The position numbers and the translations under genes were made by a program. The notes below the pieces were generated by a model. The model saw only the letters and a program-made list of their open reading frames with translations. It did no database searches and was not told the DNA's origin. 39,966 nt of DNA from an uncultured Muribaculaceae bacterium (lineage in GTDB: Bacteria; Bacteroidota; Bacteroidia; Bacteroidales; Muribaculaceae): assembly GCA_947179295.1 (NCBI GenBank), contig CAMXAZ010000024.1, positions 1-39,966 of the forward strand, written 5' to 3'. This document shows positions 3,682 through 39,855 of the stretch, piece after piece (the first letter of the stretch is position 1; the number at the start of each line of letters is the position of its first letter).

Positions 3682-3780
3682 CTTTTTTTAGTTACTTAAT
3701 GCTTAAAAAACAGACTCTGAGAAATAGAGCCTGTTAGCTGCGTGAACTAAAAAAGCGTCAGGAGCACACGGATAGATAAA

Positions 3781-3815
3781 AAAGGAGATGTCTCACGACA
3801 TCTCCTTTCCTTTTT
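3781..3815. terminator. Perfect 12-bp hairpin with T-runs, bidirectional terminator
   Basis: AAAGGAGATGTC (3781-3792) and GACATCTCCTTT (3797-3808) form a perfect 12-bp stem with a TCAC loop. T-runs follow on the plus strand (3811-3815) and, through the A-run at 3775-3783, on the minus strand. Both flanking genes are transcribed away from it, so it ends neither. The rest of the 450-base gap holds the two divergent promoters, a weak hairpin near 3714-3736 and no convincing gene. Confidence 0.75.
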
Positions 3816-3979
3816 AAACCTTTATCTTAATCTAATACTATGAAAAACACACATGCAAATGTAGGAATTAAAATTGGAACATTTGCACACCATAGCGTAT
3901 ATTTAACAATATTTAGCCAAAAATTAGAAAAATAGATGAAAAAATGGTCTGCATAGCGTCCAAAGATCTCTCGCAGGTG

Positions 3980-7522: not shown

Positions 7523-7887
7523 CCATCCGGAACCGTAAATCGGTGTCCTCGACCGGACACCCAATGCAAGAAGAATAGCTAACCCGTGACACCTTTGCGC
7601 TCTGCGCTGCGGTGTCACGGGCTACGAGTAAATCCGCGTCCTCCGGACGCCCATCCGGCCCCGCAGGCGGATGTTGTCCGCCGATGCGTCCCCCGGATGG
7701 CCTTGCGAGCAGCGGGTGTCCGCACGGGCGGGCTCCGAATGGTTCGCGGTTATCGGGTGTCCGTCAGGACACCGATTTAATAGTAGCCCCCGACACCGCA
7801 GCGCAAAGCGCGTAGGTGTCGGGGGTAAATATATTCACGTAAAAGAGGTGTCCGGCCGAGGACACCGATTTACCGTTCCGGACGGCC
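7523..7887. repeat. Palindromic repeat element A (Q arm, core, inverted P arm)
   Basis: Composite intergenic repeat. Left Q arm: hairpin GGTGTCC/GGACACC within 7536-7562, large hairpin CCCGTGACACC (7583-7593)/GGTGTCACGGG (7611-7621) with an inner GCGC/GCGC stem, then GCGTCC/GGACGC ending at 7650. Core of GC-rich units 7651-7754. Inverted P arm: GGTGTCC/GGACACC (7756-7773), CCCCCGACACC (7787-7797)/GGTGTCGGGGG (7815-7825), and GGTGTCC...GATTTAC (7847-7873). The outer ends are inverted copies of one another. It fills most of the gap between the NhaC and POT genes. Open frames through it repeat the same peptides in several frames and are not genes. Confidence 0.85.
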
Positions 7888-21602: not shown

Positions 21603-22042
21603 GCCATCCGGGTTGGTAAATCGGTGTCCTCGGCCGGACACCACATTGGCGTGAATATCTTTTACCCCCGACACCTACGCGCTGTGCGCTGCGGTGTCGG
21701 GGGCTACTATTAAATCGGTGTCCTGTCGGACACCCGCTGCCGGCGGACCATTCGGAACCTGCCCGGCGGACACCTGCGGCCCGTGGCCGTCCGGAACCTG
21801 TCCTGTCGGACACCCGCTATCCGCATGGCTATCCTGCTTGGCCCGGCGGACACCCGCGGTCCGTGGCCGTCCGGATGGGCGTCCGGAGGACGCAGATTTA
21901 CTCGTAGCCCGTGACACCGCAGCGCAGAGCGCGCAGGTGTCACGGGTTAGCTATTACCCCGGCAAAGGTGTCCGGTCGAGGACACCGATTTACGGTTCCG
22001 GATGGCTGATATCGGGTTGGGAATACGGACGGAATGTCGGGC
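21603..22042. repeat. Palindromic repeat element B (P arm, core, inverted Q arm)
   Basis: P arm: outer hairpin (21616-21642), large hairpin CCCCCGACACC/GGTGTCGGGGG (21665-21703) with an inner GCGC stem, then TAAATCGGTGTCC...GGACACCCGC (21711-21737). Core 21738-21877: GC-rich units of about 35 bases containing GTCCGG, TCCTGTCGGACACCCGC and CCGTGGCC. Inverted Q arm: GCGTCC/GGACGC (21880-21893), CCCGTGACACC/GGTGTCACGGG (21908-21946), and outer hairpin 21967-21993. Similar units extend left to about 21530. Positions 21842-22042 recur in element B2 with a single difference. It fills most of the 694-base gap before the small secreted-protein gene. Confidence 0.85.
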
Positions 22043-22168
22043 GAGGCGGACACCCGCCATCCGCGGAGCCGTCCGGGGGCGCTGTGACGCGCTTAAAGAA
22101 TCTGTTTTAATTGTGGCGTTAACGTTATTTAACTATTTGGGGGGGGTGAAATTTCTGACTCATTTGCT

Positions 22169-22176
22169 TATCTTTG
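22169..22176 (+). promoter_or_regulatory. -7 box of the small secreted-protein gene
   Basis: TATCTTTG matches TAnnTTTG 35 bases before the ATG at 22212. A TTTG at 22136-22139 is 29 bases away, too far for the usual 19-21 spacing. The spacer begins with eight consecutive G residues (22139-22146). Confidence 0.5.
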
Positions 22177-22211
22177 CGACTGTAAATCATTCAAAAACCA
22201 ATCGTTATTTT

Positions 22212-22688
22212 ATGAAAAATTTAGTTTTGACTTTGTTTCTGACGCTCTTTGCGTTTAATTTGTATGCCGATGATTTCAGCTGGGGTGAAGGTTCACCTGA
22301 CAAATATCAGCCGTCAACCACCAAGATAATCGTGACCCGCACCTCTCCCTGCAATCAAGGCGACGAGGCGTTCATGGATTTTATTCCTAAATTCCGCACC
22401 AACAAGGCTTTCCGAAACAGTCGTATCAGAATTGCCGCTGAGGATGAAATTAGTCAAATGTCAGCCGATTGTTATGAAAACTGGCATCTCATAAAGGCCG
22501 GCAAGGGCGTTTCCGATGGAGCAAGATATTATGGCACATGGTTTAACATCAGTGCCGACCAGGTATGCTTTGTATACAGTGAATCTTCTGTTGACCCCAA
22601 CGCTCTGTGGGGAGGCAGCGGTGCCTATTTTCGTTTCCAGAGAATCGATGACCAGTGGTATCTGACAGGCATAATGCTGGCAGGCTAA
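22212..22688 (+). CDS. Small secreted protein of unknown function
   Basis: 158-aa protein with a clear signal peptide (MKNLVLTLFLTLFAFNLYA, cleavage likely before DDFSWG). The mature part starts with an acidic/aromatic stretch and ends in strand-rich sequence with YFRFQRIDDQWYLTGI, a pattern seen in DUF4348- or NTF2-like lipoproteins of Bacteroidetes that end in '..W.l..i'. No catalytic motif is evident. I do not recognise a specific family. The gene is clearly less GC-rich than its surroundings and lies between two copies of a nearly identical 201-base repeat segment, which suggests it moved or was duplicated with the repeats. Confidence 0.65.
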   Translation: MKNLVLTLFLTLFAFNLYADDFSWGEGSPDKYQPSTTKIIVTRTSPCNQGDEAFMDFIPKFRTNKAFRNSRIRIAAEDEISQMSADCYENWHLIKAGKGVSDGARYYGTWFNISADQVCFVYSESSVDPNALWGGSGAYFRFQRIDDQWYLTGIMLAG

Positions 22689-22721
22689 ACCTCTGAAATC
22701 CGGATTCCCGCCCTCCGCGGG

Positions 22722-23205
22722 GCCATCCGGTTTGGTAAATCGGTGTCCTCGATCGGACACCACATTAGCGTGAACATCTTTTACCCCCGACACCTGCGCG
22801 CTGTGCGCTACGGTGTCGGGGGCTACTATTAAATCGGTGTCCTTGCGGACACCCGCCATCCTCGGCCCGTCCTGGTTGTGTCCTGTCGGACACCCGCAGC
22901 CCGTGGCCTGTCCGGGTTGCGTCCTGTCGGACACCCGCCCCCGCGGGGCCGTCCGGGTTGCGTCCTGACGGTACTTACCAACCGCGTGGCCGTCCGGAAC
23001 CTGTCCCGGCGGACACCCGCGGTCCGTGGCCGTCCGGATGGGCGTCCGGAGGACGCAGATTTACTCGTAGCCCGTGACACCGCAGCGCAGAGCGCGCAGG
23101 TGTCACGGGTTAGCTATTACCCCGGCAAAGGTGTCCGGTCGAGGACACCGATTTACGGTTCCGGATGGCTGATATCGGGGTGGGAATACGGACGGAATGT
23201 CGGGC
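22722..23205. repeat. Palindromic repeat element B2 (P arm, longer core, inverted Q arm)
   Basis: Same order as element B. P arm: outer hairpin 22735-22761 and large hairpin CCCCCGACACC/GGTGTCGGGGG (22784-22822). The core is longer, with about four units containing CCGTGGCC or GGGGCCGTCCGG plus TCCTGTCGGACACCCGC. Inverted Q arm: CCCGTGACACC/GGTGTCACGGG (23071-23109) and outer hairpin 23130-23156. Positions 23005-23205 match 21842-22042 at 200 of 201 bases. It occupies the gap between the secreted-protein gene and the 3' end of mgtE. Confidence 0.85.
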
Positions 23206-23271
23206 TTTGGCGACGCGGACACCTGCCAACCGCATGGCTATCCTGCTCCGTCCTTGCGGACAGCGGGGTGA

Positions 23272-25954: not shown

Positions 25955-26462
25955 GGCCGTCCGGGTTGGTAAATCGGTGTCCTCGACCGGACACCACATT
26001 GGGGTGAATGTCTTTTTCCCCCGACACCTACGCGCAATGCGCTGCGGTGTCGGGGACTACGAGTAAATCGGTGTCCTGTCGGACACCCGCAGCCCGCAGG
26101 ACCATTCGGAGGCCACCCGGCGGATCGCGGTGCCGTCCGGATTGGTAAATCGGTGTCCTCGACCGGACACCGGATGCAGGAGGGATTGCAAACCCGTGAC
26201 ACCTGCGCGCTTTGCGCTACGGTGTCACGGGCTACGAGTAAATCCGCGTCCTCCGGACGCCCGTCCGGCAACCGCCCCACGCAGCAGCAGGTGTCCGCCG
26301 GATCACGTTCCGGATGGCCACGCGGGCTGCGGGTGTCCGCCAGGACACCGGTTTACTCGTAGCCCCCGACACCGTAGCGCACAGCGCGTAGGTGTCGGGG
26401 GAAAAGACATTCACGCCAATGTGGTGTCCGGTCGAGGACACCGATTTACCGCTCCGGATGGC
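25955..26462. repeat. Palindromic repeat element C (P arm, Q arm, core, inverted P arm)
   Basis: Three arms. P arm: outer hairpin 25969-25995 and large hairpin 26019-26055 (one lost outer pair). Q arm in the same orientation: outer hairpin 26145-26171 and CCCGTGACACC/GGTGTCACGGG (26193-26231), then GCGTCC/GGACGC. Core about 26265-26330. Inverted P arm: CCCCCGACACC/GGTGTCGGGGG (26363-26401) and outer hairpin 26423-26449. It fills the space between the RNA candidate and the promoter at 26504. Confidence 0.85.
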
Positions 26463-39297: not shown

Positions 39298-39305
39298 TGT
39301 TAATC

Positions 39306-39422
39306 AGCCTCTTCGAGGCAGGAGATGTTTTGTTTGGTTGACCCCAGGCATCGCTCGGCCCTTCGGGCGCTCGCTTACCCTGGGGTTTCGAAAACATAGC
39401 CTCTTCGAGGCATCGGCTGTGC
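39306..39422. repeat. Second repeat family, copy 1
   Basis: 117-base unit repeated at 39739-39855 with five differences. It starts and ends with the small palindrome GCCTCTTCGAGGC and carries a central stem CCCCAGG/CCTGGGG with an inner CCC-TTC-GGG hairpin. It begins only 8 bases after the Nudix stop. Confidence 0.85.
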
Positions 39423-39426
39423 TGGG

Positions 39427-39543
39427 GCTGTGCGGGGTACGCTGGGTGTCTCTGTCTGAGGGCCGTGCGGGGTACGCTGGGTGTCTCTGTCTGAGTGCCT
39501 TGCGGGGTACACGGGGTGTCTCTGCCTGTGGGCCTTGCGGGGT
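39427..39543. repeat. 35-base tandem repeat, about 3.3 units
   Basis: Units start at 39427, 39462 and 39497, with a partial unit from 39532. Each contains TGCGGGGTAC, then GGGTGTCTCTG. Units 1 and 2 differ at two positions; unit 3 is more diverged. The array runs into element D. Confidence 0.85.
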
Positions 39544-39544
39544 G

Positions 39545-39663
39545 GTAAATCGGTGTCCTTGGTCGGACACCTTTTTAGGGAAATTTTTTACCCCCGACAC
39601 CTTTGCGCTATGCGCTTCGGTGTCGGGGGCTATGAGTAAATCGATGTCCTGACGGACATCCGC
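39545..39663. repeat. Palindromic repeat element D (solitary P arm)
   Basis: Outer hairpin GGTGTCC/GGACACC (within 39545-39571), large hairpin CCCCCGACACC (39591-39601)/GGTGTCGGGGG (39619-39629) with an inner GCGC stem, then TAAATCGATGTCC...GGACATCCGC. The last hairpin has A and T where the other P arms have G and C, so pairing is kept. No inverted partner arm is present before the window ends. A small GC-rich stretch follows to 39738. Confidence 0.8.
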
Positions 39664-39738
39664 GGGGCGGGGTTCGGGAGGGATATTTTGCGGATGTCAG
39701 CCGGACGTGGTTGGTGATTTTACGGGCGGTTTGTTAGT

Positions 39739-39855
39739 CAGCCTCTTCGAGGCAGGAAATGTTTTGTTTGGTTAGCCCCAGGCATCGCTCGACCCTTCGG
39801 GCGCTCGCTTACCCTGGGGTTTCGAAAATATAGCCTCTTCGAGGCATCGGCTGTG
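39739..39855. repeat. Second repeat family, copy 2
   Basis: Repeats 39306-39422, in the same orientation 433 bases further on. Differences from copy 1 are mostly transitions, and the central CCCCAGG/CCTGGGG stem and end palindromes are intact. The remaining 111 bases to the window end are GC-rich and hold loose TGCGGGG-type units, with no gene. Confidence 0.85.

Follow-up and report, generated by a model that had tools for sequence, protein, structure and literature searches.

Three-hairpin palindromic arms in a Muribaculaceae genome as candidate ends for a TnpA_Y1 subclass 1.2 transposase

What are the large palindromes that lie between the genes of this bacterial DNA, and what could have dispersed them? 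The window, by which we mean the whole stretch of 39,966 nucleotides analyzed here (positions 1 to 39,966 of contig CAMXAZ010000024.1, GenBank assembly GCA_947179295.1, from an uncultured Muribaculaceae bacterium), contains five such elements, all present where an initial annotation, made from the letters alone, had placed them. It had described them as an unrecognized family of composite repeats that would be moved in trans. Comparison with other genomes of the family favors a more specific reading: quite probably, the arms that make up these elements are dispersed, non-autonomous copies of the ends recognized by a transposase of TnpA_Y1 subclass 1.2.

Architecture of the arms and the elements they form

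A profile of 61 arms finds ten arms in the window, six of subtype A, which has a CCCCCGACACC stem, and four of subtype B, which has a CCCGTGACACC stem. Three of the elements are inward-facing A/B pairs. Specifically, E1 (7523–7887) consists of a plus-strand B arm (7535–7650) facing a minus-strand A arm (7756–7874) across a GC-rich core of about 106 nt; E2 (21603–22042) has a plus-strand A arm (21615–21734) facing a minus-strand B arm (21879–21993); and E3 (22722–23205) likewise pairs a plus-strand A arm (22734–22853) with a minus-strand B arm (23042–23156), with a core of repeats that carry CGGACACC at a spacing of 41 (and 82) bases. The description of arms facing each other around a core therefore holds for these three elements, but E4 (25955–26462) has three arms (A plus at 25968–26087, B plus at 26144–26260 and A minus at 26332–26450) and E5 (39544–39663, plus strand) is a single A arm at 39544–39659. 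None of the ten arms overlaps any of the 24 main open reading frames selected by hand in the window, and the elements thus lie between genes, as had been proposed.

Several other features of the window are worth recording. Two 204-base stretches (21839–22042 and 23002–23205) that flank a small gene for a secreted-looking product (about 22211–22688) are 99% identical, which suggests a recent duplication. Between a gene end and E5, a 35-base unit is repeated three times in tandem (39425–39529). The only Rfam match in the window is FopS (RF04319, a Bacteroidetes small RNA) at 3774–3850 on the minus strand, with 57 bits against a gathering score of 56.

The A arm of E2 illustrates the layout. Its first small hairpin (21623–21642, plus strand, like the features that follow) has the stem GGTGTCC/GGACACC and stands after a TAAATC; its large hairpin (21665–21703) runs from CCCCCGACACC to GGTGTCGGGGG and encloses an inner GCGC/GCGC stem; the linker CTACTAT with a further TAAATC (21704–21716) places GTAG at the 5′ foot of the large hairpin on the other strand; and the second small hairpin, read from the sequence, occupies 21717–21734. 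When the ten window arms are aligned, the unit reads GTAAATC, GGTGTCC/GGACACC, a spacer of about 21 nt, a hairpin with an 11-bp stem, a linker such as CTACGAG, TAAATC and a small hairpin. This reproduces the design given in the initial annotation, 3-nt loop and 7-nt linker included, and adds that TAAATC precedes the first small hairpin as well as the second. The inner GCGC/GCGC stem is a property of the window arms but is not conserved in relatives.

To place this design in a wider sample, 65 arms were selected from 118 distinct near-full arms, of which 61 were aligned, three from locus L138 and one from L168 having been dropped as odd or redundant; the aligned arms come from the window's own genome, from Duncaniella muris, from a more distant genome (G034) and from other genera. 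The order of parts is fixed throughout: AATC and a small hairpin, 20–21 nt or so, the large hairpin, (C/T)TAC, and AATC with a second small hairpin, so that an AATC-type motif stands 5′ of both small hairpins. The foot of the large hairpin is TTAC or CTAC in 50 of the 61 arms, equivalent to GTAA or GTAG at the 5′ foot on the other strand; the full count for that complementary strand is GTAA 28, GTAG 22, ATAG 8, ATAA 2 and TTAA 1.

The three hairpins of the E2 arm correspond, in order, to three helices that covary within 116 model positions. The arm is indeed more elaborate than a REP or BIME unit, as had been claimed. In the 61-arm alignment 95.3% of cells are paired, a value that falls to 29–48% when partners are slid by one to three columns. 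Changes on both sides occur in 14 of 25 pairs, and 164 cells keep their pair through two-sided changes, compared with a mean of 44 after shuffling and with none of 500 shuffles as high; on one of the five covariation measures, a count of further pair types, the arms do not exceed the shuffles (24 against 26.6). One-sided G–T changes account for only 4 cells among the 61 arms. Such a near-absence of G–T intermediates is what DNA palindromes should show and would be unusual in RNA, and it points to DNA rather than RNA structure as what shaped the arms. An explanation in terms of RNA was set aside on the same covariation pattern and on the Rfam search, in which no family matched over the elements at its gathering score.

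A Y1 transposase gene between the arms

The claim that the window lacks a transposase is borne out for the Y1 family, as a search of the window's contig with PF01797 at E ≤ 0.1 returned none. Elsewhere in the same genome, the open reading frames that lie between arms (on contigs C37, C27 and C92) were considered as transposase candidates and look, by eye, like ordinary chromosomal genes. In a genome of a different genus (G032), a gene for a 142-residue IS200-type protein lies between two inverted arms, the left one incomplete by eye. This protein matches PF01797 with 82.4 bits (cut-off 23) and NF033573 with 64.9 bits (cut-off 55). A protein search finds relatives of it in 49 of 99 genomes of the family, and a search of the window's genus with a four-sequence profile gives matches in 13 of 27 genomes. 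From the recovered loci we collected 59 distinct tnpA genes, 30 from the search with the G032 protein (which listed more matches than these) and all 29 from the genus search.

The motif Y-x3-Q-x2-HH is present in 56 of the 59 genes and DH[IV]H in an alignment of 17 of the proteins, the profile of which matches the solved ISHp608 transposase and others. Quentin et al. (2018, PMC6006769) give the signature of subclass 1.2 as Y---Q--HH and DH[IV]H in a protein of about 148 residues, present in low copy in Bacteroidetes, and describe the subclass as related to IS200 transposases but without the properties of insertion sequences. Judged by these motifs, the arm-flanked genes carry the signature of TnpA_Y1 subclass 1.2.

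The link between arm and gene extends beyond the locus that led to it. A profile of the ten window arms has matches below E 0.01 in the flanks of 8 of the 59 genes (best E 4.9e-13) and gives none at that threshold at the other 51 genes or in control stretches. These eight are exactly the genes ranked first to eighth by clade score; four of them had supplied the clade profile, and ranks five to eight are thus the independent part of this agreement. Seven of the eight were found by protein similarity alone, and the G032 gene, to which an arm had led, is partly circular. Both sides are matched in seven genes and one side only in G032, mostly in inverted orientation, typically with a plus arm downstream and a minus arm upstream (L138 is matched on both strands). 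In a genome of the window's own genus (G105) the arms, in locus L225, lie 35–36 bp from both ends of the gene (76258–76683). In a tree of 58 of the 59 genes, from which one 90-residue piece was dropped, the eight arm-flanked genes and two weak cases (L150 and L151, flank E 0.05–0.09) form one branch with support 99/90. Genes of this clade (with A3 scores from about 194 bits upward) occur once or twice per genome; other subclass 1.2 genes account for as many as 9 diverged matches in a single genome.

Beyond this clade, small-large-small trios of hairpins can be seen by eye on one or both sides of many of the loci recovered early, with stem sequences that differ between genes. With a mismatch-tolerant descriptor, which replaced an earlier perfect-stem one (this had found, over 35 genes, trios on the downstream side of 10 and on the upstream side of 10), such trios score 20 or more in 31 of 114 tnpA flanks, as against 2 of 294 control stretches lying 600–1450 bp away and 2 of 570 shuffles (Fisher 8e-17); at any score the counts are 33 flanks, 4 control stretches and 2 shuffles. 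The trio is present in part of the subclass 1.2 members, not in all: it stands on both flanks in only 9 of 54 genes and on either flank in 20 of 58 loci, which counts against the arms being the ends of this transposase in general. A second point on that side is that tnpA sits between outward-facing arms, and close pairs in the window's own genome are mostly inward (15 of 25).

It is also worth considering whether the enzyme is instead a class 2 TnpA_REP (RAYT) that mobilizes the arms as classic REP or BIME elements. The window's genome has one RAYT-like gene (C12:48215–48619, the minus strand of L031:1456–2052; NF047646 60.6 bits, cut-off 80), and GTAG is the foot tetranucleotide, on the complementary strand, of 22 of the 61 arms. 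That gene, however, has its own simple GGATGCTCC palindrome, within the reading frame and near the start, and for this reason we drop it as the source of the arms; with its internal palindrome it resembles the subclass 2.4 genes of Quentin et al. (PMC6006769). Furthermore, a scan of the 10.4 kb that surround it (L051) found no arm, D. muris is rich in arms and has no RAYT match at E ≤ 0.001, and RAYT matches, none of them over the cut-off, occur in 63 of 99 family genomes as against 7 of 99 with arms by BLAST. The gene that the arms do enclose is a member of another subclass, and we regard a RAYT origin as quite improbable. Of the annotation's suggestion to look for an accompanying transposase such as TnpA-REP/Y1, the Y1 part stands, with subclass 1.2 genes that are flanked by window-type arms in 8 of 59 cases and with arms in number in all eight genomes that have the clade gene, while the classic TnpA-REP part fails on the separate palindrome of the genome's own RAYT and on the lack of a RAYT match in D. 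muris.

Dispersal of the arms with and without the gene

If the arms are ends of the subclass 1.2 transposase, their distribution should be read beside that of the clade gene. They occur well beyond a single locus. With one arm as the query, BLAST finds 72 matches in the window's own genome (a 2.85-Mb draft in 116 contigs; best non-self E 1.5e-53), a level of similarity that chance would not produce; the count includes some weak opposite-strand matches to the same palindromes. A covariance model, to which some of the searched genomes had themselves supplied training arms, has matches in 23 of 80 family genomes, a sample made up of the whole genus (27 genomes) and 53 selected from the rest of the family. 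A pattern search of named genomes returned only Duncaniella muris DSM 103720, with 21 stretches, and the E2 element has no match in plasmids and phages at E ≤ 1e-5.

All eight genomes with a clade tnpA have at least 22 arm matches, and arms of any number are found in 15 of the 72 others (Fisher 1.7e-5). Among the eight, the matches number 22 in G105, 24 each in G051 and G070, 31 in G015, 33 each in G113 and G116, and at least 46 each in G032 and G115; arms on more than one contig were seen for G032, G015 and G105. The arm-bearing genomes among the other 72 include the window's own (G000), G090 and G007, with at least 46 each, G034 with 43 and G031 with 33. A clade tnpA was absent at E ≤ 10 from G000, G034 and G054 despite their many arms, and D. 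muris, whose genome is recorded as 100% complete, likewise lacks a clade tnpA, its single Y1 gene being very distant; these absences count against the proposed link between arm and gene. The presence of arms in genomes without the clade gene implies that the arms outlive it or travel without it.

In the stretches of the window's genome that were examined, 62 arms were counted (33 of subtype A, 28 of subtype B and 1 unclassed); they form 25 neighboring pairs less than 450 bp apart: 14 inward A/B pairs, 1 inward pair of like type, 5 outward and 5 tandem, so that 20 of the 25 are inverted. Outward pairs have a nearly constant spacing (29–31 bp in the five own-genome pairs and 22–25 bp in four of six pairs in G034). 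A simple reading of these outward pairs as a clonal miniature inverted-repeat element is unsupported, as the spacer varies in sequence despite its nearly constant length. Nine contigs (C31, C35, C37, C50, C56, C76, C92, C98 and C108) end in or close to arms, and for this reason the arms probably break short-read assemblies of the window's genus.

Comparison with relatives indicates how individual sites have changed. D. muris, of the same genus as the window's genome and about 93–96% identical to the window, has the same E1 pair in the same orientation. At the E2/E3 site it has one A arm, at E2, and lacks E3; the part missing corresponds to window positions 21738–23264, which include the small gene as well as the remaining arms. 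At the E4 site it has a plus A arm and a minus B arm, in an order that differs from the window's. These comparisons, mostly of shared sites with altered arm content, fit recombination between arms and are no proof of transposition. On contig C37, a 10-kb block is inverted relative to D. muris, and arms stand at its two ends in the window's genome; an inversion mediated by arms is only partly supported there, because just one of the two junctions in D. muris holds an arm. In G034, about 80% identical to the window, inspection by eye found no arm at the E1 site and none over 700 bases past the counterpart of window 25889, on the E4 side, and an arm-like remnant near the counterpart of window 21519. 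Since both the window's genome and D. muris hold expanded arms without the clade gene, their arms are probably relics for which arm-to-arm recombination has been the main source of change.

These site comparisons also bear on the idea that the arms are functional elements of the host, such as terminators, mRNA-stabilizing hairpins or binding sites for gyrase or nucleoid proteins, kept by selection and associated with tnpA only secondarily. Their strong conservation and covariation, their position between the main reading frames of the window and their high copy number in several genomes that lack the clade transposase would all suit such a role. Against it, the E1 and E4 sites of G034 are without arms over the extent inspected, one element lies apparently between divergent genes and others between convergent or tandem ones, no T-run follows the large hairpin, one-sided G–T cells number only 4 among the 61 arms, and arms stand on both sides of tnpA in several genera. 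We consider a host function unlikely.

The clearest indication of movement comes from G007. In this genome, two unrelated places (L223:1289–1747 and L224:1321–1850) each have fragments of a clade-like tnpA enclosed by arms; the two copies are 95% identical over 328 nt, with an alignment that stops at the edges of the element, and in one of them one arm lacks its large hairpin. Internally deleted derivatives that share their parent's ends are thus represented by two copies, in G007 only, and the occurrence of one such derivative at two sites suggests mobilization in trans, which supports at that strength what had been proposed for the window. By eye, both G007 units also have outer inverted repeats, of GTGTATCAAAAG and GAGGGTGTTG type, beyond the arms; beside one of the units, two simple GTAG-type palindromes form a pair that is bounded by a similar stretch.

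Such outer repeats, together with the inverted arrangement of arms that bound small units, would be in keeping with miniature inverted-repeat elements of another transposase, of the DDE or serine type. The units in G007 nonetheless contain a piece of a Y1 gene, and such a gene is enclosed by arms in seven loci and has an arm on one side in an eighth, which leaves this the least probable of the alternatives considered, and a very slim one.

The window also carries a second repeat family, with a layout that by eye is again small-large-small. One arm of this family lies at 39300–39417 on the plus strand, with GCCTCTTCGAGGC hairpins and a CCCCAGG/CCTGGGG stem, and a second copy at 39734–39851, also on the plus strand; further copies are found at six loci of the same genome (L008, L010, L015, L025, L027 and L032) among those retrieved for arms of the first family. 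This family has matches at the tnpA genes of L155 (both sides, same orientation), L126 and L135. A tie to one tnpA clade was considered and rejected, as these matches are weak (E 1.5e-5 to 0.009) and the genes lie apart in the tree.

A proposed mode of action and its relation to known systems

With the arms read as ends of the subclass 1.2 enzyme, we infer a mode of action along the following lines. In genomes that keep the gene, a minus arm, tnpA and a plus arm would constitute a REPtron-like unit with inverted three-hairpin ends. When a strand becomes single, for example as the lagging-strand template, the arms would fold; the tnpA product could then bind the large hairpin, be guided by the GTA(G/A)-type tetranucleotide at the hairpin foot, cut next to the arm and move arm-bounded units in trans. 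More broadly, we lean somewhat toward the view that subclass 1.2 is a separate class of single-stranded DNA transposition, with symmetric inverted three-hairpin arms that co-diversify with clades of the enzyme, that it spreads arm-bounded units in trans through Bacteroidales, and that several families of arms, at least two of them in the window, coexist and outlast their enzymes.

Because subclass 1.2 was described without properties of insertion sequences and without REPs, it had no assigned substrate, and the arms offer a concrete candidate that can be tested with oligonucleotides. They also constitute a high-copy class of repeats in several genera of a gut bacterial family, and would mean that REP-type systems include ends of three hairpins as well as of one.

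It is informative to set the arms beside what has been described for related systems. For subclass 1.2, Quentin et al. (PMC6006769) report no REPs and, in general, no terminal secondary structures of the IS200 kind. The genes studied here have the same signature, and part of them have three-hairpin, mostly inverted arms; as read from sequence, our data contradict the published statement for at least the clade studied. In searches of published open-access articles we found no description of three-hairpin arms of subclass 1.2.

The IS200/IS605 elements (subclass 1.1) share the PF01797 family and the presence of hairpins near the ends. Their ends, however, are not inverted and have small subterminal hairpins on one strand, whereas the ends here are mostly inverted copies of each other and much larger; likewise, they occur as several near-identical full copies per genome, whereas here the gene is low-copy and diverged and the other copies are mostly arms without a gene. 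The inverted ends are the reason that the arms, as far as their sequence goes, are not ordinary IS200/IS605 ends. TIRYTs, or terminal-inverted-repeat tyrosine transposases (PMC3733652), also have a Y1-type gene between inverted repeats; the subclass survey assigns 20 of the 26 to subclass 2.1 and describes TIRYT repeats as not typical secondary structures (PMC6006769).

The closest likeness is to the REPtron and its TnpA_REP (RAYT), in which a Y1 gene is flanked by inverted palindromes, the type of repeat is tied to the gene, and repeats are dispersed between genes as inverted pairs with a GTAG-like tetranucleotide at the foot. These features recur here, the tetranucleotide in part, and yet there are differences. 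A REPtron repeat is one hairpin of 20–65 nt, whereas the arms here are about 116 nt long with three hairpins; the class 2 TnpA_REP protein has Y-x3-NP, whereas the proteins at the arms have Y-x3-Q-x2-HH; and the foot tetranucleotide, GTAA or GTAG (at times ATAG, ATAA or TTAA), overlaps in part with the GT[AG]G of classic REPs. With neither the single short hairpin nor the class 2 enzyme in place, the arms are not members of the classic REP/BIME group. The term "unrecognized family" is apt in that no Rfam family matches, but these repeats stand closer to REP and REPtron systems than it implies: they look like a REPtron-like variant, a more elaborate kind of REP element.
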